From a virus, in IMG/VR virus record IMGVR_UViG_3300025096_000040, positions 1 to 45,438 of that record: a stretch of DNA of 45,438 nucleotides. One strand, 5' to 3'. Numbering within the stretch: the first letter of the stretch is position 1; each line of letters begins with the position of its first letter. Under the pieces are notes generated by a model that saw only the letters and a list, made by a program, of their open reading frames with translations, did not search any database and had not been told where the DNA came from. The translations under genes were made by a program, and so were the position numbers. Positions 10,057-43,139 of the stretch are shown in pieces.

Positions 10057-11771
10057 ACTTTAACATATCCTTGTGCTTCTAGTTCATCCATATCTGCATT
10101 ATAATTAGGATCGGAATCCTGATTAAAAATATTTATATCTTCGAAGATGACTGGAGGTGGTTTCCAGGTGTCGTCAATATTTTGCATCTTATAATCTTGG
10201 AGGAAATTGCTAAATTTTTGATCGATATATGGGCCGAGTTCTATTTTTGCTGGTCGTTGATTATCATCAATTTCTACAACATTATAATATTTTTGAATGA
10301 CGCTATTTTCTAATATTAATAATGCCCACACCATCGCCATAACCCTATCATCATAATCAAACCCTGGCTGGGCTGCCCACGACCCATTAGGGTATCGTAC
10401 AAAATTTTTCATTTCTACAACAGCTGGTCTTGATCTTACATCAACACACTTAATATCATTAACCCAATATCTCATATTAGTAATACCTTTGTATTTGGTA
10501 TTAGTGTGAGCATATACCCCTAGTCTGTCATATTTTACTTGACCTACTTTAGGCGACCAATTAACTATACTTCTGTAATTATATTGGTGATATAAATTAT
10601 CTACAACCTGACTACCGCAATTATTTCTTTCAATTAATACAGGAGGTGCGCCCCAGTGATAACATATATCACGAACTTTAGTAGTAAATTCAAATGGATT
10701 AATTTCATTAGATGCATATTCTGCAACTTGTTTTATGTCTTGTAGTTCAGTTATATCTAAGACCTGTATAACGCTAAAATTCTGACCTACACCCTCTGCT
10801 ACATCAACACCAATAGTATATAAATGATCTTTATCAGGTTCTTCCCATACTTTATAACAACCGTCATCAAACACATATGTTGGTTCTGTTGCTTTTGCTA
10901 ATAATTTTTCAAAGAAGATTTCATCAATAAATGAATCGCCAGTGTCAAGAAACTTACAGTCAAACTCTTGTGCAAAAGCTTCTTCACTTCCTATAGATTT
11001 AATAGTTTCGTGCTTCCATGCTTCATCTCTACCTGGAACTTCATGCCATAATATTTTTTCTGCCTTCCAGTTGTTTATTCCTTTTTCTGCTTCTGTATAC
11101 AATGTGTGAAATAAATTACCACTCCCATTAGGGGTAGATGCAACAAATATTTTAGATTTTGTTGATGCTGAAATAATTGGGTATACTGACTTCCAAAATT
11201 CTTCAACAAGATTATTTGGAATAAAAGCTAACTCGTCAAGAACTAAAACATTTACAGATTCACCTCGACCTGCATCTGAACTTGTAGTACTAATACCAAT
11301 ACTACTACCGTTTGCTAATTTCATAGAAGTTTTACCGTACTCTATAACACCTGGTTTTAAATAATTTGGTAAATTCTCATATGCAAGCCTAACTCGTGAA
11401 AAAATACTAATAGCAGTCTGTTCTTTATTTGCGACGATTAATATTCGCTGATCGTCTTGAAAGCAAGCAATCCATAACGCGTAGATCGTCATCATAGTAG
11501 TTTTTCCTGTTTGTCTACTAGCCATACAAGCTACAAATCTATTATCTCTTAAACTACGTAACACTCTTTTTTGATAAGAGTATAAACTAATTTTTATTCT
11601 ACCTTGATCAAGATTAACAATGTGAAAAAAGTTTTCTGCAAAGTGGAGAATGTTCTGTCTCGCCTTCTTAAGAGACTTCACCATTTCAGGAGTCCATTCG
11701 TACTCCATATTGGGGTTAGGTAAATTTGTATTACCTAAATAAAATTTATCGTCCTTTTTTAGCCTAGGCAC
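10053..11771 (-). CDS. 17: Terminase large subunit (gp17)
   Basis: This 572-residue packaging motor translocates DNA into the prohead and cuts it. Seen in order: the adenine/Q region YSYQKRVL, Walker A SRQTGKTT (about residue 89), Walker B VLVLDELAF (about 177), the coupling motif ASTPNGSGN, and the RNase H-type nuclease triad region with GVDVAEG (about 323), LIERNNCG and YDDRVMAMVW (about 477). T4 gp17 has 610 residues. The start is GTG at 11771; upstream is an overlapping divergent late promoter (TGTAAATA, 6 nt before GTG), which supports this start although it leaves essentially no leader. The small terminase subunit is not in the window. Confidence 0.95.
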   Translation of the reverse strand: MPRLKKDDKFYLGNTNLPNPNMEYEWTPEMVKSLKKARQNILHFAENFFHIVNLDQGRIKISLYSYQKRVLRSLRDNRFVACMASRQTGKTTMMTIYALWIACFQDDQRILIVANKEQTAISIFSRVRLAYENLPNYLKPGVIEYGKTSMKLANGSSIGISTTSSDAGRGESVNVLVLDELAFIPNNLVEEFWKSVYPIISASTKSKIFVASTPNGSGNLFHTLYTEAEKGINNWKAEKILWHEVPGRDEAWKHETIKSIGSEEAFAQEFDCKFLDTGDSFIDEIFFEKLLAKATEPTYVFDDGCYKVWEEPDKDHLYTIGVDVAEGVGQNFSVIQVLDITELQDIKQVAEYASNEINPFEFTTKVRDICYHWGAPPVLIERNNCGSQVVDNLYHQYNYRSIVNWSPKVGQVKYDRLGVYAHTNTKYKGITNMRYWVNDIKCVDVRSRPAVVEMKNFVRYPNGSWAAQPGFDYDDRVMAMVWALLILENSVIQKYYNVVEIDDNQRPAKIELGPYIDQKFSNFLQDYKMQNIDDTWKPPPVIFEDINIFNQDSDPNYNADMDELEAQGYVKV

Positions 11772-11785
11772 TATAAATATTTACA
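11772..11785. promoter_or_regulatory. 14-bp bidirectional late promoter (gene 17 / scaffold-like gene)
   Basis: TATAAATATTTACA reads as TATAAATA on the plus strand (11772-11779, 5 nt before ATG 11785). It reads as TGTAAATA on the minus strand (11785-11778, 6 nt before GTG 11771). The two octamers share their centre, and the whole intergenic space is 13 bp. The identical 14-mer, inverted, lies at 44032-44045 between another divergent pair. Confidence 0.6.
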
Positions 11786-13176
11786 TGAACAGCAGAGATT
11801 TAAACTCTATTAATGAAGCCTTTGTGCAAGCTACGGCAAAGGTAGTTGCTGAAGATACTATCGAAGAAGCGAGACCACCGATTGGTGCGGCAGCCCGGGA
11901 AGGTGATCCAGTGAAACAGAAAACAAAACCATGGACTGGTTCTTCGAAAACAAAAAATAGTGGCAAGAAGGCGAACCCCCCCGGTAGGCCAAAGCCAAAT
12001 GACAAAGAAGAGGATGACGAGATAGAAGAGGTGAAGGAAGATCTTGGTCCGGATTTTGGTGATGAACAAGATTTTGGTGATCCTTCTCGTCATAGCGGTG
12101 ACTATTTAGATGATGAGCCATTAGATGTCGGAGATATAGTAGAGGTTGAGGGTGAAGACGATGACTTCGTAGTTCTTGATCTTGATGGAGAGTACGTGAA
12201 TTTAGCTGCTGTTAGGGATGCAATTGAAGTTAAACGATCCTCAGTTGTAAAACGGGAGTCAGTTAAAGTAGAGAAAAAGTTAGTTACATTAAAAGAAAAA
12301 AAGAAAGTTATGAAGTATACAGATATAATGGATGAGTATGAAAGTCGGCTATCGACAAGCTCTAGAGGATTTTCACTAAAATCTAAACTAAATGAAGAAG
12401 ATGGAACTTCATTCAAACAACCAGATGAAGGTGTTGGAGTGAAGGTAGATGACAAGACACAACGCCCAAAAGATGAAGCTAGCGCAGAGGTAGTTGAGGA
12501 GCCAACGGAAAATGTAAAGGATGATTTACAGGAGCCTAAAGAAGGAGAAGAAAAAAATACCAAAAAAGAAGAGAAAGTTGTAGAGGATAGTATAAATAAT
12601 TCTAACAAAGGTAATATTATGTCACAAGATAAATCAATTTTTGATAAGCTCTATGAGCAAGTTATGAGTGAGGACGATGATTTCGAACTCGGTGTCCCAG
12701 GTGATGGACTCGGCGCAGTCGGTGATGAGCTCGGAGACGAGATCGGAGATGAAGGCGGCGAAGATGTCACTGTAACATTAAGCCCGGATCAAGTCGATGC
12801 TCTTAAGGCAGTAGTTGATCAATTTCCATCACCGGAAGATGATCTCGGTGGTGAGGATGAATTCGGTGGCGATGAAGAGGAGCCTGAAGAAGGCTTCCGG
12901 CGCGAGAGCACTGAAACCGTTGCCGAGGGAGACGAGCAGTCTACCGGGAAGCCAACTACAGATGGTGCCAAGCCAGGTGTTGATCCTTCCGATGGTGGAG
13001 GTAAGTCTACTGATGTTGCAGCTGATAGCCTAGGTGGTAAGTCATCTGGTACAGGTGATGCAAAGGTTACTGACGATCCTGCCTCAACTGGGAAACCAAC
13101 TACAGACGGTAGTAAGCCTGGTGTTGCAAAGAATTCAGGGAAACCTGGTAAGCAGAAAGCTAACGCTAAGATCTAA
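11785..13176 (+). CDS. Acidic low-complexity virion/scaffold-like protein with nested C-terminal gene
   Basis: This 463-residue, very acidic protein has a short ordered start (MNSRDLNSINEAFVQATAKV), a basic Pro/Lys patch, Glu/Asp-rich linkers and a Lys/Val region (about 150-185). The C-terminal part begins at Met279 with MSQDKSIFDKLYEQVMSEDD and includes VTVTLSPDQVDALKAVVD. That C-terminal part looks like an independent prohead-core or structural protein and has its own late promoter and ribosome site. Near the end a 14-residue unit is repeated (STGKPTTDGAKPGV and STGKPTTDGSKPGV). GC content is above that of the replication genes. It is expressed late, from a leaderless promoter. A scaffold or prohead core role is inferred from composition and proximity to gp17. 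Confidence 0.5.
   Translation: MNSRDLNSINEAFVQATAKVVAEDTIEEARPPIGAAAREGDPVKQKTKPWTGSSKTKNSGKKANPPGRPKPNDKEEDDEIEEVKEDLGPDFGDEQDFGDPSRHSGDYLDDEPLDVGDIVEVEGEDDDFVVLDLDGEYVNLAAVRDAIEVKRSSVVKRESVKVEKKLVTLKEKKKVMKYTDIMDEYESRLSTSSRGFSLKSKLNEEDGTSFKQPDEGVGVKVDDKTQRPKDEASAEVVEEPTENVKDDLQEPKEGEEKNTKKEEKVVEDSINNSNKGNIMSQDKSIFDKLYEQVMSEDDDFELGVPGDGLGAVGDELGDEIGDEGGEDVTVTLSPDQVDALKAVVDQFPSPEDDLGGEDEFGGDEEEPEEGFRRESTETVAEGDEQSTGKPTTDGAKPGVDPSDGGGKSTDVAADSLGGKSSGTGDAKVTDDPASTGKPTTDGSKPGVAKNSGKPGKQKANAKI
12591..12611 (+). promoter_or_regulatory. Internal late promoter and ribosome site inside the acidic ORF
   Basis: A perfect TATAAATA (12591-12598) is followed by a 20-nt interval containing AAAGG (12607-12611), 7 nt before an in-frame ATG at 12619. 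Octamer, Shine-Dalgarno and ATG at ordinary distances within one coding frame indicate a second, shorter product. Confidence 0.6.
12619..13176 (+). CDS. Nested in-frame C-terminal product, prohead-core-like (185 aa)
   Basis: Starting at Met279 of the larger ORF, this 185-residue acidic protein begins MSQDKSIFDKLYEQVM. Its IFDKLYEQVM start and the VTVTLSPDQVDALK segment are what I would expect of a stand-alone acidic prohead-core type protein. Support for separate expression is the internal TATAAATA plus AAAGG at the correct distance. Nested in-frame scaffolds are known in other phages (for example lambda C/Nu3). The alternative is that the promoter is a leftover from fusion of two former genes and only the long form matters. 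The terminator at 13203 ends both. Confidence 0.5.
   Translation: MSQDKSIFDKLYEQVMSEDDDFELGVPGDGLGAVGDELGDEIGDEGGEDVTVTLSPDQVDALKAVVDQFPSPEDDLGGEDEFGGDEEEPEEGFRRESTETVAEGDEQSTGKPTTDGAKPGVDPSDGGGKSTDVAADSLGGKSSGTGDAKVTDDPASTGKPTTDGSKPGVAKNSGKPGKQKANAKI
12940..13125 (+). repeat. Imperfect 42-bp coding repeat, two copies
   Basis: Copies at 12940-12981 and 13084-13125 encode STGKPTTDGxKPGV, differing in one residue (A or S). They are separated by 102 bp of Gly/Ser/Asp-rich coding sequence in the same frame. Confidence 0.75.
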
Positions 13177-13202
13177 TACAATTAAAACATAGTACCTTTG
13201 AC

Positions 13203-13231
13203 AGCCCCTTGCAGTGCAGGGGGCTTTTTTT
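13203..13231 (+). terminator. Rho-independent terminator after the acidic ORF
   Basis: The stem AGCCCCTTGC pairs with GCAGGGGGCT (one T-G wobble) around a 3-nt loop and is followed by seven T residues (13225-13231). It lies 26 bp after the stop at 13176 and is the clearest terminator in the window. Confidence 0.85.
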
Positions 13232-13239
13232 ATTAAATA
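13232..13239 (+). promoter_or_regulatory. Candidate late promoter for the 102-aa ORF
   Basis: ATTAAATA follows the terminator directly and ends 6 nt before the ATG at 13246, restarting transcription for the 102-aa and neck-like genes with almost no leader. Confidence 0.4.
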
Positions 13240-13245
13240 ATTAAA

Positions 13246-13554
13246 ATGTTATTCACTCGAAAATTTCTTGAAGCTTTAGGTTGTAAGGATTTATATAAAT
13301 TAAGAGGAAGTACCGGTTCTGGTAGAGCTCGTCAAAATCTGTTACCTGCTAATAGTCGTGCGAAACCTGAGCCAAATGGTTTAAAAAGCTTAAAGGCATG
13401 TCAAACTGGAGTTCGACTTTTAAATGATCAAGAAGTACAAGAGATAAAACAATTATTTGGAATTACAGATCTCGAAGAGACTGGATCTAGGAATTTAGGT
13501 AATACAGGAATAACAATGTATGTTGCAAACAATCAATATTATATTAAAAAATAA
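13246..13554 (+). CDS. Hypothetical protein, 102 aa
   Basis: A basic, small protein (MLFTRKFLEALGCKDLYKLR) with a Gly/Ser/Arg-rich stretch near residue 25 and a C-terminal part rich in polar residues (TGITMYVANNQYYIKK). I recognise no family. It begins 15 bp after the terminator and its last base is shared with the ATG of the neck-like gene (TAATG), so the two are coupled and probably both concern virion assembly. Confidence 0.6.
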   Translation: MLFTRKFLEALGCKDLYKLRGSTGSGRARQNLLPANSRAKPEPNGLKSLKACQTGVRLLNDQEVQEIKQLFGITDLEETGSRNLGNTGITMYVANNQYYIKK

Positions 13555-14306
13555 TGGCATCAGCATGGAGTACAGAGACAGTAACTGCAGTTAATTATCT
13601 TAGTGATGCAGAAGATCTTACACGGTTTAATAATAAATCGTTAGGTACGAATGAACGTAATCAGACATATAAAAGATGGTGGAAAGAACAAGTAAGGTTA
13701 TATGGAACCAGTGTTAGTTATTATGTCCGAAAATTTGATTTAAGTAAGACTGATAAGGTATATGGTGAAAATCCATATCAAGGGTATCAACTACCTCAGA
13801 CCCTTACTATGTTAGTAGACTTAACGGACGGTGCAATAACATACTCTCAATATGGTTTAGTATCTGATGATGAACTGGCAGCTGTAATAGATATTGAAAC
13901 TTATCAAAAAACTCTTTCTTCTTATTATCATACCGCAGGTTATAGTGGCACGCTAAGTGCTATGCCTAACGCAGGAGATGTATTTCAATTAACTGAATAC
14001 GGTGACGACCGACCAGGAGGGAAAGACGGTAAAATATTTGAAATTACAGAACGTATGGATCAAATGGTTGGTGAAATTAATCAGCTTCAAGGTCATTATG
14101 TATTTAAACTTCGAGCTCGTAGGAACGATCATACATTCTTACCAGGGCTACCTGCTGAAGCTAAATCTACTCAAGTTACTGATACATCAGGAGTTGGTCC
14201 TTTAACAGCTCTTGAGACTGATTATATTAATGATTTAGACACCGAACAGGCGTCGTATTTTAGTGAATATGGTACTAACGACGATGTGTATGGTGATTAT
14301 TACTAA
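13554..14306 (+). CDS. Neck/head-completion protein, gp14-like candidate
   Basis: 250 residues, close to T4 gp14 (256). The order of segments fits gp14-type neck proteins: a WWKEQVRLYGTSVSYYVRKF element, then DKVYGENP, a beta-rich centre with GLVSDDE, a GDVFQLTEYGDD segment, GKIFEITERMDQM, and a Tyr/Leu strand with YVFKLRARRND. In this family a tyrosine-rich strand near the start (YGxxVYYxPR) and 'DxxYGE' recur. A neck role also suits its place beside packaging genes. The C-terminus is acidic and overlaps the opposite-strand gene by 32 bp. I give only moderate weight because I compare from memory. Confidence 0.45.
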   Translation: MASAWSTETVTAVNYLSDAEDLTRFNNKSLGTNERNQTYKRWWKEQVRLYGTSVSYYVRKFDLSKTDKVYGENPYQGYQLPQTLTMLVDLTDGAITYSQYGLVSDDELAAVIDIETYQKTLSSYYHTAGYSGTLSAMPNAGDVFQLTEYGDDRPGGKDGKIFEITERMDQMVGEINQLQGHYVFKLRARRNDHTFLPGLPAEAKSTQVTDTSGVGPLTALETDYINDLDTEQASYFSEYGTNDDVYGDYY

Positions 14307-24467: not shown

Positions 24468-25814
24468 TTACAATACTCTCCCGAATTGTACAGCATCGTT
24501 TTCCGCAGTATTTACATCTTCGTTAATATTTAAATCATTATTTTCTGTAAGTGTAAGAGTGTTATAGTCTATAGAGACTCGAGTGCTCCCTGTATTGGAA
24601 CCAAATCTATTTTTAATAATGCCGATATGAAGCGCATCATCTTCTTCATCTTCTTCCGTTCTCCAAATACTTACAATAACATCTGAAGTGGCTCCTAATC
24701 CATAACTTTCTCCAATAGCTTCTAATCCAGGACCATTGGTAGTGTTTCCATAACCTGTTCTATTTACTTGTGTAGCGGTAATGATAGGACATTCAAATGT
24801 ATATGACATTGCTCTCACTTGTTCAGAAATACTCTTAACACGCTCATACGAATTATTACCATATGTACTTGCTAGGAGATTTAAATAATCAAGAACTATA
24901 ATATCAGGTTTAAATTTCTTATTTATTAATTTTTTAATATACCCTTCAAGTTGTGGAGGTGTAATAGAACTCGGAGCAAATTCTTTAATTATCATATTAG
25001 CTCGTGGATGAGTCATTTTAAATTTACCTACACTTTCTCTTAATTCTTCTACATGATCATGTAAATAGTTTATAGGTAAACCGGTGAGCTTTGATGTAAT
25101 CCTTTTACAATAAATCATTTCTGACATTTCAAGAGAAACGACTAAAACATTTTTACCTTCTGCTGCTGCATTGCTTGCAATATTACTTAAAAATATAGAC
25201 TTACCCACATTAGTAGGTCCGGCGAATACATACATACTACGACCTTGTTCTAAGAAACCACCACCAAGTCTAGAATCTAACCAATCCCATCCTGTTTTAA
25301 TTTTTTCTTCCCGGGTTGTCAAGTCAGTAATATGTTGCTCAACATCTTTAAAATAATTATGACCTACATTAGTAGTAATAGAAATATTACATGCCTTTGA
25401 AAATTTGTCATGAATACTTTTTATATCTCTCTCTTTATTATCAACAATTTCTAAAAATGTATTAAATACGGCTTGCTCTTGTAAGAACCTCTCTGTATAA
25501 GAAAGTAATATGTCATTAGATAATTCTACTTCTAGAGTGTTAGTAATCTTCTTACTTGCTTGATAATGATCTTTAAGCTGCGGTGTGTTTAAATATAATT
25601 CTAATTCAGTGTGAGTAGGTCGTCTATTGTTTTTTCGATAGAGAGCCTGTATGATTTTAATTATTTGTTTAAAGTCTTTATTTTTAAAGAATTTATAATT
25701 AAGATTATCAATAATAGAAGTTAGATAAATTTCATCTTCAAGACAATTCTTAAAAACTACCTTTTCTAAATATTCTAAATCTATATCTAAATAATTACTT
25801 TCGTTTGTCAGCAT
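24468..25814 (-). CDS. 41: Replicative DNA helicase (gp41, DnaB type)
   Basis: 448 residues against 475 in T4 gp41. After an N-terminal helical domain, Walker A reads AGPTNVGKS (about residue 200), followed by VLVVSLEMSE (DnaB-type switch) and IIVLDYLNLLAS (Walker B). ITATQVNRTGYG is the conserved TQ-N-R segment, and the arginine-finger region follows (GIIKNRFGSNTG). It unwinds the fork as a hexamer and works with primase gp61. The start overlaps the glycosyltransferase gene by 20 bp. Confidence 0.93.
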   Translation of the reverse strand: MLTNESNYLDIDLEYLEKVVFKNCLEDEIYLTSIIDNLNYKFFKNKDFKQIIKIIQALYRKNNRRPTHTELELYLNTPQLKDHYQASKKITNTLEVELSNDILLSYTERFLQEQAVFNTFLEIVDNKERDIKSIHDKFSKACNISITTNVGHNYFKDVEQHITDLTTREEKIKTGWDWLDSRLGGGFLEQGRSMYVFAGPTNVGKSIFLSNIASNAAAEGKNVLVVSLEMSEMIYCKRITSKLTGLPINYLHDHVEELRESVGKFKMTHPRANMIIKEFAPSSITPPQLEGYIKKLINKKFKPDIIVLDYLNLLASTYGNNSYERVKSISEQVRAMSYTFECPIITATQVNRTGYGNTTNGPGLEAIGESYGLGATSDVIVSIWRTEEDEEDDALHIGIIKNRFGSNTGSTRVSIDYNTLTLTENNDLNINEDVNTAENDAVQFGRVL

Positions 25815-26496
25815 GTTCTAACAGAGTATTATAGAAGTATTCTTCTGAATTGCTATAACTTTCTGTGTGGTTGAGCAAGCCAGGAGATTCGTGAATGACA
25901 TGAATAGGAGCTGTAGTTAAACGTAAACCAGCTAAATGACAATCTAAACAAAATTTTAAATCATAATGATGAAAACCTTTAAGGTTATTATCAAATTTTA
26001 TTTTCTTCTTTGCAATTGATTTAGTTCGAATAGCTAAAAATACACCATCTAATAATACCACTTCTTTTGGTGTTGCACCAAATATTGTGGGAGAGTAGTC
26101 TGTATTATTTTGATAATGTGATACTATTCCAGATAGGGAGTCTGGTTTACACAATAAATGCCATAGGCAAGGTTTTTTAACTTGTAGTTTACTTCCACCT
26201 GCTAGACCTACTACATCAAACCCTTGTTTAAACAAATTACGGATCTCTACTAAAAAATTTATACTATCAATAAACACATCATCGTGTACGAATAGAATAC
26301 AATCATATTTTTTAAAGTTTTCTGGTGTAAGATAATTATTGTAAACATCACACAACCCGCTAGTATTTTTATATGTAGGTTGAAGATCAAACGTAGTTAT
26401 AGTGTTTTCTTCGTGATGTTGCAAGCTTTTAGATAATCTAGAATTTAAAAACTCTGCACTCGTAGCTTGTGTAGCGACTGCTATTAAAGTTTTCAT
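25795..26496 (-). CDS. GT-A glycosyltransferase-like protein
   Basis: 233 residues. It starts as a single-domain GT-A enzyme with ILFVHDDVFIDSINF (DxD-like metal motif), GFDVVGLAGG and LLDGVFLAIRTKSI. It ends with HYDLKFCLDCHLAGLRL and HVIHESPGLL, the usual donor and acceptor positions of family-2-like transferases (Glyco_tranf_2_5-like by recall). It would transfer sugar from a nucleotide-sugar donor to an unknown acceptor. It lies between the amidotransferase and the gp41 helicase gene, overlapping both. Given rmlA, rmlB and the rmlD-like gene, the donor could be a dTDP-deoxysugar. Confidence 0.7.
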   Translation of the reverse strand: MKTLIAVATQATSAEFLNSRLSKSLQHHEENTITTFDLQPTYKNTSGLCDVYNNYLTPENFKKYDCILFVHDDVFIDSINFLVEIRNLFKQGFDVVGLAGGSKLQVKKPCLWHLLCKPDSLSGIVSHYQNNTDYSPTIFGATPKEVVLLDGVFLAIRTKSIAKKKIKFDNNLKGFHHYDLKFCLDCHLAGLRLTTAPIHVIHESPGLLNHTESYSNSEEYFYNTLLEHADKRK

Positions 26497-27134
26497 AAAA
26501 AGAATGGTGTCATGTTTAGTTCAAATTCTTCTTCTTTATTAAAGGTATTATTAGTAAAATTATAAATCAGAACAGTACCTTCAGTTATATCTTTATATTC
26601 ATCACTCACTTGAATCGAACTAAAATCCCCACCGTTACTAAATAGTGTAGAGCCTGATCTAAATATACGTAATTCTGCGTGGTCGGTGTCATAGTACCAG
26701 CAACCAAATGTTCCTTGTAGCGCAGAGATTGCGTCATTAAATCCTATTTTTTCTATTAAGGGTAAAATCACATTACTATCTACTTTACATTTAATATCTA
26801 AATTATACTCTTGTATTAATTCTTCATGATTAGATAGTACGCCATTATGTGCTATGTATCTATTTTTAAAACTAAACGGGTGAGAAGTCTCTATATTAAA
26901 GTCTCGAACGTTGGATGTTGGTGACTGTACGTGACCTAGGTAATATATACAGAAAGGGTTTTCTTCTATATGCTTATCAAAATCTTGTTCATATTTTGTT
27001 GACACACGAATATCATTTTTCATCCCACCGGGGAATAGCATTGTCACGCTACGTACAAAGTTTCCTCTTTCAGAGTTTTTTGTATATAGCTCTCTAAACG
27101 TCTTAATATTGTTTGATCCAAAAATTCCACACAT
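26493..27134 (-). CDS. Stand-alone class II glutamine amidotransferase domain
   Basis: 213 residues. The catalytic N-terminus MCGIFGSNN exposes Cys2 after Met removal, as in GlmS, PurF and AsnB. LGHVQSPTSN (Arg-binding loop region), YIAHNGVLSNHEEL (HNG oxyanion) and VDSNVILPLIEKIG complete the family pattern. It lacks a synthetase domain; its neighbours one gene away include QueC, whose PP-loop fold matches the synthetase half of AsnB. In archaea and some phages, a class II amidotransferase fused to QueC (Gat-QueC) makes the amidine of archaeosine from preQ0. Ammonia transfer to a QueC product is thus a strong inference. Confidence 0.85.
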   Translation of the reverse strand: MCGIFGSNNIKTFRELYTKNSERGNFVRSVTMLFPGGMKNDIRVSTKYEQDFDKHIEENPFCIYYLGHVQSPTSNVRDFNIETSHPFSFKNRYIAHNGVLSNHEELIQEYNLDIKCKVDSNVILPLIEKIGFNDAISALQGTFGCWYYDTDHAELRIFRSGSTLFSNGGDFSSIQVSDEYKDITEGTVLIYNFTNNTFNKEEEFELNMTPFFL

Positions 27135-27136
27135 AG

Positions 27137-28093
27137 TTATTTTAATTGTATGAACTCCGCTTTACTTAGGCAACTTAAATCTTTGCAACCAGCATATGAA
27201 ACAGAGCTCTTAAGAGCCTTTTCAATTTCTCTTAATCTAATATTATATTCCGGTGCTAATTCTATTTCTATTTGTTTACCTTCAACAAAATTTAATTTAT
27301 TTCTTTTTTGAGTATATGATGTACTACCGTAGTATTGTTTATGTCCGTTAATATGTTTTGCAGGAGAGTCAATACAACCTGCAAAAAAAGATCCAGCCAT
27401 TACACAATCTGCTCCAGCAACTAAAGCCTTTGCAATATCTCCAAATTCTTTACATCCACCATCAGCCATTATTTTAGCCTTTGTATTGTGGGAGCTAATT
27501 TTTAATAATGTTGAAAACATAGGTGTACCAAACCCGGTCTTGTACCGTGTAGTACAGATAACTCCTGATCCAATTCCTACTTTAATAACATCAGCACCAG
27601 CGTCTTCTAAAAATTGAAAGCCATCATAGGTTCCGACGTTACCGGCAATAACTATTGAATCAGGGAAATATTTTTTAACATACCTAACCATACTACTGAC
27701 TTTTTGATGATGTCCATGAGCTACGTCGATTGTAATAATATCAATTCTATATTTATTAAGTATAATAGCTTCTAATTGATCATAAGATTCTCGGTTTACT
27801 CCTATACTAACACTTACGCAATTACAATTAAGGTCATTAAGTTTTTGTACTGTTTCAAATACATTATCAAACCGATGCATAATATAAAAATAATTATTAT
27901 CATCTAATTGCTTGCATAGCTCGATATCTATTACAGTTTTCATATTAGATGGAACTACTGGTAAGTTAAATGAAAACTTCCCTAACTTAAAAGATACGTT
28001 TGCACCTTCGCGAGAATCTAATTGACTATATTTTGGTACTAATAAAATATCAGAATATTCTAGTTCACTACCATGGTATATCTGTTCGTTCAT
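27137..28093 (-). CDS. GMP reductase / IMP dehydrogenase family enzyme
   Basis: 318 residues, a TIM-barrel enzyme. It has DIITIDVAHGHH, VIAGNVGTYDG, the catalytic loop VGIGSGVICTTR (Cys about residue 183) and MADGGCKEFGDIAKAL, then MAGSFFAGC. There is no CBS insert, and the C-terminal EGKQIEIELA and SSVSYAGCKDLSCL fit GMP reductase better than IMPDH. It would interconvert GMP and IMP with NADPH, or, in the deazaguanine cluster, supply guanine nucleotides. It overlaps queC by 26 bp and lies 2 bp before the amidotransferase. Confidence 0.75.
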   Translation of the reverse strand: MNEQIYHGSELEYSDILLVPKYSQLDSREGANVSFKLGKFSFNLPVVPSNMKTVIDIELCKQLDDNNYFYIMHRFDNVFETVQKLNDLNCNCVSVSIGVNRESYDQLEAIILNKYRIDIITIDVAHGHHQKVSSMVRYVKKYFPDSIVIAGNVGTYDGFQFLEDAGADVIKVGIGSGVICTTRYKTGFGTPMFSTLLKISSHNTKAKIMADGGCKEFGDIAKALVAGADCVMAGSFFAGCIDSPAKHINGHKQYYGSTSYTQKRNKLNFVEGKQIEIELAPEYNIRLREIEKALKSSVSYAGCKDLSCLSKAEFIQLK

Positions 28094-28757
28094 ATTCTAT
28101 TGGGTCTTTGATTTTATTTTGTAAGAAGCCTTGTATACGAGAACTACACGCTGTACAATATCCACAAGCGTTTACGTTACCTTCATAACACGTCCATGTA
28201 TCTTCAAATATTACATCATTATCAATTCCGAGTTTTATAATTTCTTTTTTTGCTAGATGAATTAAAGGAGCCTTTATTTCAATTCTATTTTTTCTATTAA
28301 GAGAAATTAGTGTATTTATTTTATCACGAAATTCAATACTACCGTCCCAGTATCCAGCTTGGCTGTCTACTAAAGCTGATCCATGATAAACAGTATCTGC
28401 ACCGACGGCTTCTGCGTATGAGCAAGCAATAGACAGCATCATCATATTACGAAACGGAACATAGTTTACAGTTTGGGCGTCTCCTAATACGTCTTTTGCG
28501 TGTGCTACTTTGATATCATTATTAGTAAGGGAAGATGTAGGTGCTATATCCTTAAAAAATGTTATATCTATAATTTTATGTTCTTCGATATTAGAACTAA
28601 AATAATCTACTTGAGTACCTGCACATAGAATTTCTTTATCGTGTTTTTGTCCGTAATTATATGTTATTGCAAATACTTCGTCGTGCTGCTTTGTCGCAAT
28701 ACTTAATATAACTGAACTATCTAAACCACCTGAAATAGGTACAACAGCTTTACTCAT
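28068..28757 (-). CDS. queC: 7-cyano-7-deazaguanine synthase (QueC)
   Basis: 229 residues. The PP-loop is SGGLDSSV (residues 8-15), with NYGQKHDKE following. Zinc-binding cysteines near the end read TCYEGNVNACGYCTACSSR (C-x8-C-x2-C-x2-C), and NYVPFRNMM matches QueC. It converts CDG to preQ0 with ATP and ammonia. FolE, the first enzyme of the same route, is at 41795-42433; QueD and QueE are not in the window. It overlaps uvsX by 8 bp, so it is translated with recombination proteins. The likely end use is guanine modification of phage DNA. Confidence 0.93.
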   Translation of the reverse strand: MSKAVVPISGGLDSSVILSIATKQHDEVFAITYNYGQKHDKEILCAGTQVDYFSSNIEEHKIIDITFFKDIAPTSSLTNNDIKVAHAKDVLGDAQTVNYVPFRNMMMLSIACSYAEAVGADTVYHGSALVDSQAGYWDGSIEFRDKINTLISLNRKNRIEIKAPLIHLAKKEIIKLGIDNDVIFEDTWTCYEGNVNACGYCTACSSRIQGFLQNKIKDPIEYERTDIPW

Positions 28758-29865
28758 CGTCTTGTTCTAATATAGCATTATCTTCTAAAGCTTTACCATA
28801 CCGGTATTTTTCACTTATAGAAGATTCTATCTTAGGTAATATATTATTCCACAGTTCCTCGTCTTTGCGCCAGTTCTTGTAGTATCCTAGCTTTTTGTCT
28901 CCCATAGTATATGTAGAACCGTTTTGCTGAATAACTCCATGAGCCACGGCAACCTCTTTTAATCCGGAATATTTATCTAAACCTGTTTTAAAGTTTAAAT
29001 ATGCCTCCGCTTGTAAGAATGCAGGTATAAACCTATTTTTTACAGTTAACATTCGAAGAGTAACACCGGAGTAATTTCTACTTTCAGTCAACGCTTCGTC
29101 TTTATCATTTGCAGTATCTGTCCTTTCTTTTTTGGCAGCCATTTGGACTAATAAAGAAGCCATGTACATAGGACCAGATCCCCCAGCTTGTTGTTTGACT
29201 AAGGTAGGATGGAGTGCACCAGGGTCAGCATATGTGTGATTACTACATATAATGGTTGTACCAGTTACGGCAGCCTTATATGTAATAATACGCATCATGG
29301 ATTTAAGCTGTTTAGCTCTGAGCCCCATGTCCATGGCTCCTTTATTAGCCTCAGCGTCAGCAATTTCTTTTGAAGAGGCTAAGTTTCCAAGAGAATCAAT
29401 TGATATAATAAATTTTCCGTGGAGTTCTGGCTCTTCTTCAACACTGTCTAAGAATGCCATAATTTGATTACGACAATTTTCAACAGTATCAACAGGAACA
29501 TATTTTACATTTGAAACATCTAGACCTACATTTTCAGCTCCTTCTTTTTCAATTGCGACTTCAGTATCAAATATTACAGGAACCATTCCAATTTTCTGAG
29601 CCTTGGCAAGAATCTTATTTAAAATAAAAGTCTTGCCACATTGAGCTTCACCAGCGAAAATTGTTATTCTACCTTTAGGTACACCTCCATATAGAGATCC
29701 AGATAAAATAGAATTTAATACTAGGCACCCAGTATCAATCCACTCAGTTACATTACTAAGCGTATTCTCTTCAAGAGTAGTCGCGTTTTTATTAAGCTTT
29801 TGTAATTTAGCAAATGCTTTATTAACAAGAGTCTCATCATACGCCTTTTCAGCATATTTTGACAT
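28750..29865 (-). CDS. uvsX: Recombinase UvsX (RecA family)
   Basis: 371 residues against 391 in T4 UvsX. Walker A is AGEAQCGKTF (about residue 73), Walker B ISIDSLGNLAS, with ADAEANKGAMDMGLRAKQLK (loop L1 region), TTIICSNHTY and GGSGPMYMAS (loop L2). It pairs single-stranded ends with homologous duplex in recombination-dependent replication, with UvsY and gp32. It starts 3 bp after the 119-aa gene. Confidence 0.93.
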   Translation of the reverse strand: MSKYAEKAYDETLVNKAFAKLQKLNKNATTLEENTLSNVTEWIDTGCLVLNSILSGSLYGGVPKGRITIFAGEAQCGKTFILNKILAKAQKIGMVPVIFDTEVAIEKEGAENVGLDVSNVKYVPVDTVENCRNQIMAFLDSVEEEPELHGKFIISIDSLGNLASSKEIADAEANKGAMDMGLRAKQLKSMMRIITYKAAVTGTTIICSNHTYADPGALHPTLVKQQAGGSGPMYMASLLVQMAAKKERTDTANDKDEALTESRNYSGVTLRMLTVKNRFIPAFLQAEAYLNFKTGLDKYSGLKEVAVAHGVIQQNGSTYTMGDKKLGYYKNWRKDEELWNNILPKIESSISEKYRYGKALEDNAILEQDDE

Positions 29866-40663: not shown

Positions 40664-41803
40664 ATGAGTAAATTTCTTAAAAAAATCGCCGAACTGCATA
40701 TTGGGAGTAATACTCCTGAGGAAAACGAGAAAGAAGCTCAAAATGCACGTATTGCTAATGCTAAGAAAAAGGCAAAAGCTGGAAAAGCTACTGATAAGGA
40801 AAAGGAATTAGCGGATGCAGATACTGAGTTAAATACTACACTTACTAAAAAGATTAAAAAAACACAACAAAAAATAGCTTCAGAAGCTGGTCCACAAGAT
40901 TTCGTTCCTGCTCAAGGACCACCAACTGGTGGGGATTTTGTACCATCAGCTCCACCTGGTGGAATTCCTCCCGTACCTCCTCCAGCTCCTGAACCAGCGG
41001 CGCCAGAGCCGTTGACGACAGAAGGTGAAACATTCTTAGTAAATCTTGCTCGAAAAGCATTATTTGTAACTATAGAAGATGTAGGGCTAACAGATATGGA
41101 GAGAGAGGTTATTAATAGGGCCGCTGAACCAGAAAATACAAAAAAAGTAGCTAAAATTATACGTAAAATTATTGTTGATTATGGTCTCGATGAGAGTTTT
41201 GTCTCTAAGGCTGACGTTGTTCTTGAAGGCTTATTAAAAAAAAACGATAGAGTAGTCGTTATTGTACCTGGTAGTTTTAAGCCACCTCATAAAGGCCATT
41301 TCGAGATGGTTAAGAGTTATAGTGAATTATGGCCTACTGGTCAAGTTCATGTTTTAATTTCAGCTCCATCTGCAAAAAGCGAACGAAGAACAAAAGATAA
41401 TAAATTAATTACTCCAGCTGCCGCCCTGCAAATATTTGAACTATATGTTCAACCTCTTAATAACGTTACTGTTAGTGTTTCCGAGTATCCATCACCCGTC
41501 ACCGCGGCGTATGAATCTCTTAAGACACTCGAGCAAGGGACTACAGTTGTTCTAGGCGCTAGCAAAAAAGATGATGATTGGAAGAGATGGTCATATGCGC
41601 AATCATGGGCAGAAAAAGAAGGATTAGGTTTAAATATTCTTGATCCAGCAGAGACCGCGGTCGATGTTACTTTAGATGCAGCTGGTCAACCTTATAGTGC
41701 TAGCAATATTAGAGATAATTTCGATAATTTCGAGATGATACAGCATGATATTCCAGATCACGTTGATCCAGCCCAAATAAAACAAGTATTTGACTCACTT
41801 TAA
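40664..41803 (+). CDS. Late nucleotidyltransferase with disordered N-terminal arm
   Basis: 379 residues in three parts. Residues 1-75 are a Lys/Ala/Glu helical region ([17 protein letters not shown]). Residues about 80-120 are Pro-rich ([16 protein letters not shown]). The C-terminal part is a cytidylyltransferase-fold enzyme with [18 protein letters not shown] (HxGH motif) and [10 protein letters not shown], analogous to the ISST-xxR end motif of NMN or pantetheine-phosphate adenylyltransferases. Late control and the arm suggest that it is packaged in or attached to the virion. The reaction cannot be fixed from sequence. It overlaps folE by 9 bp, tail to tail. Confidence 0.7.
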
Positions 41804-42433
41804 ATCTCTTACAAAATTATAAAACTCTTGTCTTGTGAGATCAGTTTTATCTAAAAATGCTCCTGACATTCTAGCAGTTTTCATTGTACTATCGTGTTTA
41901 ACGCCTCTTACACATGCACACATATGATTAGCTTCTACTAATACTGCTACACCATTGTTTTCATCACATACTTTATCTATATGTGTATGGATTTGCATAG
42001 TTAGATTCTCTTGTACCTGTGGTCGTCTCGCAAACCATTCAACGATTCTATTTAATTTACTTAATCCAATCACCTTACCTTCTCTTCCCGGTATATATGC
42101 TACATGCGCAACACCTATAAATGGTAGATGATGATGAGAGCAAAAAGAATGTACTGTAATATTACCTTGAAATACAATACCATCATATTTATCGATATTA
42201 TCAAATGCAGTTATCGTCGGAGGTTCGGTGTAACATCCTTCTGCTAAGTCATTTACAAATGCTTTTGCTACTCTTAGTGGTGTATTTGAACTATTAGGAT
42301 CATTTCTCCAATCAAACCCTAAGGCGTCCATATATCCTTCGTACGCTATAGCGGCATTATTGATTATATGTTCTTTTTCCTCGTCAGTTCGAGGCCGATT
42401 TTGATTGGCGTATTGAAGTAACTCCTCATTCAT
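41795..42433 (-). CDS. folE: GTP cyclohydrolase I (FolE)
   Basis: About 212 residues (start Met at 42433). [37 protein letters not shown] and [11 protein letters not shown] supply the zinc Cys and His and the catalytic His. It turns GTP into dihydroneopterin triphosphate, the first step to folate or preQ0. With QueC in the same genome window it probably feeds deazaguanine synthesis. A longer ATG (42442) overlaps the -10 box, so I chose the second ATG, which lies at the expected +1. It is a stand-alone transcript from a strong promoter. Confidence 0.93.
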
Positions 42434-42440
42434 ATGAATC

Positions 42441-42468
42441 ATTATAGCATACTCGATTTATAAGTCAA
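42441..42468 (-). promoter_or_regulatory. Strong sigma-70-like promoter of folE
   Basis: TTGACT (42468-42463), 16-bp spacer, TGC just before TATAAT (extended -10; 42446-42441), then GATTCAT and the ATG at 42433. The 7-nt interval puts +1 on or next to the A of ATG. It is the best sigma-70-like match seen here. Confidence 0.7.
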
Positions 42469-42473
42469 CTTAA

Positions 42474-43139
42474 TTAACTATTTGGTTGTAAATCCGTTAT
42501 TAATTTATAGTCTTCTTTATAAAGATCACGTATTTCGTGTTTTATTTTATCCGAAAACGTTTGTTTCGGCCAGGGATATGTTTTATCTTTTGATCTTCCA
42601 AATACATAATGTTTCTCTATTAAATTAATATTTAATTTTTTATTTAATACATTATATATTTGTTTAAATGTATCTTTTTTATATATAAAAATATCTTTGT
42701 CTATGTTTGAATAATCTAACATATTATTAATACACCATGCTTGAGGTCTAGATCTATGGTCATAATATATTTTATCTTTAAAGATACTCCACCATTCATT
42801 TATATTAATAGGTGTATCTGTCGAAGAATTAAGAAACAATAATTCTGTAGGATATGTTTTTTTCCAAAATCTAGATCGTTTACATATTAACCTATAGAAA
42901 GATTCAAGTCTCTCTATAGGATCTCTCAATATAGTAAACATGTAATCAATATCATTTATATCTACTTTATGATCAATTAGCTTTTTAACATGATAATGAA
43001 ACGAGCGATGCATATAATCACAATTAATAGTCTTATAATCCCAATCATCCACCATAAATGATTTTAATAAGCTAGTAGAACCAGTCCGCGTAATTCTAAT
43101 AAAAATAATCTTTTTATTATCTTTTATCAAATATGGCAT
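42474..43139 (-). CDS. Sulfotransferase family protein
   Basis: 221 residues. The 5'-phosphosulfate loop reads IFIRITRTGSTSLLKSF (about residues 12-28) and the 3'-phosphate-binding segment FTILRDPIERLESFYRL (about 68-84), as in PAPS-dependent carbohydrate sulfotransferases. It would add sulfate to a glycan or other hydroxyl acceptor. It starts 9 bp after a 34-residue ORF in a unit led by an SGNH-like gene. Phage sulfotransferases of this size are usually annotated as family 2; the acceptor is unknown. Confidence 0.75.
   Translation of the reverse strand: MPYLIKDNKKIIFIRITRTGSTSLLKSFMVDDWDYKTINCDYMHRSFHYHVKKLIDHKVDINDIDYMFTILRDPIERLESFYRLICKRSRFWKKTYPTELLFLNSSTDTPININEWWSIFKDKIYYDHRSRPQAWCINNMLDYSNIDKDIFIYKKDTFKQIYNVLNKKLNINLIEKHYVFGRSKDKTYPWPKQTFSDKIKHEIRDLYKEDYKLITDLQPNS

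Follow-up and report, generated by a model that had tools for sequence, protein, structure and literature searches.

The locus studied here is best read as a dispersed variant of the 7-deazaguanine DNA modification already known from phages, and as one of the preQ1 type: we consider it probable that a phage pathway spread over several sites of the genome makes a preQ1-type 7-deazaguanine and puts it in the place of guanine in the DNA of the phage itself. The stretch of DNA analysed in full (hereafter the window) is a virus record of 45,438 bases that covers part of the genome of a marine, T4-like phage; it carries genes for terminase, sheath, pol B, UvsX, gp32, UvsW and UvsY, and no close DNA match to it was found among cultured phages. 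On this reading, a group of uncultured marine T4-like phages would join the phages that rewrite the guanine of their DNA, with a predicted preQ1-type base, and an unnamed family of phage amidotransferases (likely phrog_12378) would gain a testable role, that of ammonia donor to QueC. It also raises a question seldom put to DNA base-exchange systems, namely the fate of the expelled guanine, to which the recurring combination of a GMP reductase and a phosphoribosyltransferase offers a concrete and testable answer.

Between uvsX and dnaB, three genes follow one another head to tail, all on the minus strand. Downstream of the uvsX recombinase gene (28750..29865, minus strand), which sets them in the context of a replication operon, come queC, encoding 7-cyano-7-deazaguanine synthase (28068..28757; Pfam QueC, PF06508, 2.1e-57), a gene for a GMP reductase of GuaC type 2 (27137..28093; Pfam IMPDH/GMPR, PF00478, 2.6e-59, with its catalytic residues) and gat, encoding a stand-alone class II (Ntn) amidotransferase (26493..27134; GATase_6, PF13522, 2.2e-11, with motifs and a fold model in agreement). 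A glycosyltransferase-like gene (25795..26496) follows, and the dnaB helicase gene (24468..25814) forms the downstream end of the run, both again on the minus strand. Neighbouring genes overlap by 8 bp (uvsX/queC), 26 bp (queC/GMP reductase), 4 bp (gat/glycosyltransferase) and 20 bp (glycosyltransferase/dnaB), and a gap of 2 bp separates the GMP reductase gene from gat; the coordinates, strand and close packing of the three central genes given in a preliminary description, made from the letters of the DNA alone, were thereby confirmed. The cluster is real, queC and gat adjoin in essentially all relatives with enough flanking sequence, and queC, gat and the GMP reductase gene are all under purifying selection (dN/dS 0.07-0.24). 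The glycosyltransferase-like gene keeps the same operon place in most relatives, and even remote ones have it next to gat or close by; it is conceivable that its product decorates the modified base.

QueC of the window retains the whole canonical motif set, the essential residues being taken from PMC13329287: SGGxDS, YxQxHxxE, VPxRN, the Tyr of the YPDC motif (which reads YWDG here), the Tyr of the zinc site and the four Cys. It is predicted to synthesise preQ0. In two relatives (L061 and L054) the zinc cysteines have been lost from QueC.

The amidotransferase begins with MCGIFG, which contains Cys2, and has its HNG loop at H96-N97-G98, both as first noticed, and D119 is intact. Its AlphaFold model (pLDDT 91.7) finds its best match in the glutaminase domain of GlmS (1xff, E=5.7e-10). 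Two alignments of the family, with 21 and 27 sequences, show Cys2, His96-Asn97-Gly98, Asp119 and Gln70, the last within GHxQxPT, to be invariant. In a profile alignment Gln70 falls on the Arg of GlmS HTRWAT, the residue that in GlmS binds the carboxylate of glutamine; the glutamine-binding Arg of class II amidotransferases is absent from Gat of the window, whereas it is retained at the same position in the fused Gat-QueC of phage 9g (NARAEPT). Motifs and model together indicate that Gat is an Ntn (class II) amidotransferase whose donor pocket has changed throughout the family. The members of this family, KVP40.0125 and the proteins of nt-1 and 6E35.1a included, are stand-alone phage proteins, and their genes come after queC in essentially all relatives whose flanks reach far enough. 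Split Gats are mostly annotated as hypothetical, and the PHROGs family nearest to the Gat of the window, phrog_12378, has no annotated function. Since QueC uses ammonia as its nitrogen donor (PMC13329287), the simplest role for Gat, and the most likely one, is to feed ammonia to QueC.

In the window Gat and QueC are separate ORFs with the GMP reductase between them, not one polypeptide. The preliminary description set this separation against the known fusions, but it is not new: split Gat and QueC are already known in sequence, KVP40.0124/0125 being two genes. In this pair and in Vibrio 6E35.1a, 1.081.O and nt-1 (all of Schizotequatrovirus type), directly after queC comes the gene for a separate Gat, likewise of the GHxQxPT family, and FolE, QueD and often QueF are encoded nearby. 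These phages differ in having no GMP reductase in the slot, in using DpdA2 and not a transglycosylase of the CP220 family, and in keeping their genes in one compact cluster.

The first step of the preQ0 route is encoded by folE (GTP cyclohydrolase I, 41795..42442, minus strand; PF01227, 1.6e-47), which sits 13 kb from the queC-gat cluster. That folE has a promoter of its own, as originally proposed, is borne out by a TTGACT-16-TATAAT element on the minus strand (42441..42468; 11 of 12 matches, TG before the -10) that is conserved in the sister phage G001; because promoter-like sites in the window as a whole are no commoner than in shuffles, the claim rests on this conservation. Searches of the 45-kb window record gave no QueD, QueE, QueF, TGT/DpdA or formyltransferase, in agreement with what had been said of QueD, QueE and DpdA, and the suggestion that these three might lie outside it is supported by syntenic relatives. 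The latter, from which the missing pathway genes were deduced, are about 85% identical, with records of up to 200 kb. Synteny between the window and the sister phage G001 (200,819 bp) extends over nearly all of the window, most genes having 65-92% amino-acid identity, and in G001 folE, queD and queE are grouped, queD and queE lying about 0.5-1.9 kb past folE (PHROG match of QueE 4.7e-46). In another relative, G003, homologs of the last two genes of the window stand between folE and queD, and queD is therefore expected just past the right end of the window. A second QueD-like protein (PTPS, 1.5e-22) is encoded far from this group (L102:1993-2547, i.e. G001 41993-42547).

A second operon was found elsewhere in the relatives. 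In G001 (10372-13617) it encodes, in this order, a transglycosylase-like protein, a formyltransferase (Formyl_trans_N 2.6e-11), a small protein, a kinase and QueF (QueF_N 5.5e-33; QueF 3.7e-17). About 21 near loci have this operon, with genes that overlap, and distant ones keep part of it; almost all near relatives place the small protein (116 aa, L100:11896-12246) between the formyltransferase and the kinase. QueF is present in G001, G003, G004, G006, G007 and G009 and absent from the window; the transglycosylase, which belongs to the family found in Campylobacter phage CP220 and Flavobacterium phage vB_FspM_immuto_2-6A (immuto), is encoded in G001, G003, G004, G006 and G007, again not in the window, and was not found in G002, G005 and G008-G013, whose records are fragments. 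One locus carrying the second operon (L220) comes from metagenome 3300025141, as does a locus identical to the window over gat and the GMP reductase gene (L002). We infer that the second operon is also present in the genome from which the window comes; that the operon is placed there by way of syntenic relatives, and lies outside the window record itself, is the main weakness of the present reading.

The transglycosylase of G001 matches phrog_19058 at 5e-44 and is 41% identical to CPT_0056 of CP220 and 46% identical to gp206 of immuto, which is annotated as DNA guanine transglycosylase, DpdA. An earlier profile comparison based on shallow alignments, in which the positive controls mostly failed too, was redone with 80 bacterial TGTs, and gave E=0.009 for the G001 protein, on a par with the 0.008 of proven DpdA1 (9g type), and 5.5e-6 for DpdA2; unrelated controls gave 0.25 and 0.8. 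In the alignment, IGAVQGK faces FGIIQGS of TGT, and KPHHLLG faces KPRYLMG. Weak as these profile scores are, together with the order of the motifs they suggest that the G001 family is a DpdA-type transglycosylase. A Pfam TGT search and a DpdA2 protein search of the 13 relatives produced no match; the Pfam TGT model also misses phage DpdA1 and DpdA2. HMMs built from DpdA1 and DpdA2 and run against the whole relatives gave weak chance matches, for example to a HAD/nucleotidyltransferase. Among 5,439 ORFs, a combined motif expression picked out the transglycosylase family alone; since it failed to match E. coli Tgt, it is given no weight as proof. In CP220 (L206), CPT_0055-0057, an HD/P-loop protein, the protein of the transglycosylase family and a kinase, adjoin and are annotated as hypothetical.

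In the pathway that we propose, FolE, QueD, QueE and QueC would convert GTP to preQ0, with Gat most likely supplying ammonia to QueC, and QueF would reduce preQ0 to preQ1, which the DpdA-type transglycosylase of the CP220/immuto family would then exchange for guanine after replication. The PurN-like formyltransferase would probably formylate the aminomethyl group, giving 7-(formylamino)methyl-7-deazaguanine. Because the relatives have QueF and a formyltransferase beside the DpdA-type transglycosylase, and immuto has the same operon, the base is predicted to be of preQ1 type, not archaeosine, and probably a formyl derivative. In a study by Cui and colleagues (2023), DpdA3 reportedly permits complete replacement, and a formyltransferase is said to make 7-(formylamino)methyl-7-deazaguanine; if this chemistry applies, the present group is predicted to carry that base. 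The gene order DpdA-formyltransferase-kinase-QueF of immuto is that of the window's relatives, and immuto likewise has FolE, QueD, QueE (just upstream of the DpdA operon) and a phosphoribosyltransferase; it differs in that QueC is encoded elsewhere, in belonging to a different phage lineage, and in having no Gat or GMP reductase in the stretch of the cluster examined. CP220 (a Firehammervirus) shares FolE, QueD, QueE, QueC, kinase homologs and the transglycosylase family; no QueF, Gat or GMP reductase was found in it, and its base is the amide dADG, which replaces 100% of dG (PMC8306585).

The adjacency of Gat and QueC calls to mind archaeosine, as it did in the preliminary description: the same two domains are fused in phage 9g, which makes dG+ (PMC6884629), and in principle separate Gat and QueC proteins could convert preQ0 to the amidine G+, for DpdA to insert as dG+. 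Phage 9g does have the two activities together, but in one fused protein with the Arg-containing NARAEPT, alongside DpdA1 and with no QueF_N match, whereas the Gat family of the window has Gln at that position, and in the window's relatives genes for QueF and a formyltransferase accompany that for the transglycosylase. A further indication comes from phages that share this Gat. In phage 6E35.1a, which encodes the split Gat together with QueF and DpdA2, dPreQ1 amounts to 15% of dG (PMC12028318), and nt-1, which has a split-type Gat and no QueF_N match, contains 0.11% dPreQ0, 0.035% dADG and 0.02% dG+ (PMC6884629). While the dG+ of nt-1 might be taken in favour of archaeosine, it is far below the dPreQ0 and was credited by the authors to ArcS (PMC6884629). 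A Gat of this family thus does not predict dG+, since 6E35.1a has dPreQ1 and nt-1 mere traces of dG+. We therefore regard an archaeosine route as unlikely; of the earlier proposal of an archaeosine-type base, the 7-deazaguanine route to a modified DNA base stands, whereas its assignment to the archaeosine type is not supported, given QueF, the formyltransferase, the dPreQ1 of 6E35.1a and a Gat lacking the Arg.

One may also consider explanations in which no transglycosylase of the phage acts on DNA. For phages that have preQ0 genes and no DpdA, it has been proposed that they boost queuosine (PMC6884629), in which case there would be no DNA base at all: the phage would raise the supply of preQ0 or preQ1, and the host Tgt would make more tRNA queuosine. 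The lack of Pfam TGT matches in the relatives agrees with this, but the window is a fragment, the relatives have a DpdA-family gene in one operon with QueF and the formyltransferase, and queC and gat are placed in a replication operon, so that we give this explanation the smallest probability of all. Only a little less improbable is a nucleotide-level route, in which kinases encoded beside queE and QueF would phosphorylate a deazaguanine nucleoside for polymerisation as a dGTP analogue, the GMP reductase lowering the competing GMP and dGMP. An earlier proposal for Campylobacter phages involved a dGTP analogue; queE has a kinase-like gene behind it in all loci checked whose flank reaches that far, and another stands beside QueF. 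However, the same relatives and CP220 have a transglycosylase homolog, so that such a route is not needed, CP220 lacks both GMP reductase and Gat, and the structure model of the queE-linked kinase has a pLDDT of 39. A form of this route without any DpdA was dropped once the comparison with CP220 gave the shared protein at 41% identity. The queE-linked gene (AAA_28; L108:5054-5812, i.e. G001 165054-165812) has a weak likeness to deoxyguanosine kinase.

The GMP reductase in the queC-Gat slot has its catalytic Cys180, Thr182 and Glu271 (EGK) intact, has a TR-KTG loop and falls in the GuaC clade; its NCBIfam name is GMP reductase (PRK05458), at 1.7e-92, which is below the curated cut-off of that model. 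Fold and catalytic Cys/Thr/Glu are those of GuaC-type GMP reductases (1ypf, Salmonella GuaC), but, unlike these, it sits in a phage queC-Gat operon. GMP reductase converts GMP to IMP and ammonia and therefore cannot raise the supply of GTP, so that the idea that this gene steers guanine nucleotides into the pathway has the direction reversed. In one relative (L053) the GMP reductase in the slot groups with Salmonella GuaC (98/96 support), apart from the branch of the window, and another (L056) has a partial copy of GuaC-like appearance; these placements on separate branches indicate that GMP reductase entered the slot from at least two independent sources.

What the enzyme does there is less certain. 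The gene is missing from many near relatives, the slot holds other genes in L061/L066 and L026, and six other phages with GMP reductase have no QueC, so that it could be an auxiliary gene with no link to the pathway, sitting in a hotspot for insertions between queC and gat and helping to balance purines in general. This is a serious possibility, if short of an even chance, and since the slot accepts other genes, position alone is weak evidence. One would then have to account for two distinct GMP reductase families occupying the same slot, and for L234, of another lineage, in which GMP reductase, transglycosylase, kinase and a purine phosphoribosyltransferase are encoded within 8 kb. GMP reductase as a general marker of deazaguanine phages was rejected on account of the six phages without QueC.

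Alternatively, the GMP reductase may dispose of expelled guanine. Since exchange of bases in DNA must free guanine, a salvage branch from guanine to GMP to IMP would fit the preQ1-type pathway, and a phosphoribosyltransferase of xanthine-guanine type is encoded in G001, G003 and immuto, with a weak match in CP220. The phage phosphoribosyltransferase would convert expelled guanine to GMP, and the GMP reductase, an optional add-on, would most plausibly drain this GMP to IMP and ammonia. We tentatively put forward, as a possibility of somewhat lower probability, that the two act together as a module for recycling purines, tied to an exchange of bases in viral DNA that would set free large amounts of guanine; QueC could draw on the ammonia, and the adenine pool of a genome of 32% GC on the IMP. 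One relative has an inserted methyltransferase-like gene that separates the GMP reductase gene from gat (L026:519-1124), and in two loci (L061:1779-3015 and L066:8759-9995) two genes lie between queC and gat, which by eye resemble a heme oxygenase and a bilin reductase.
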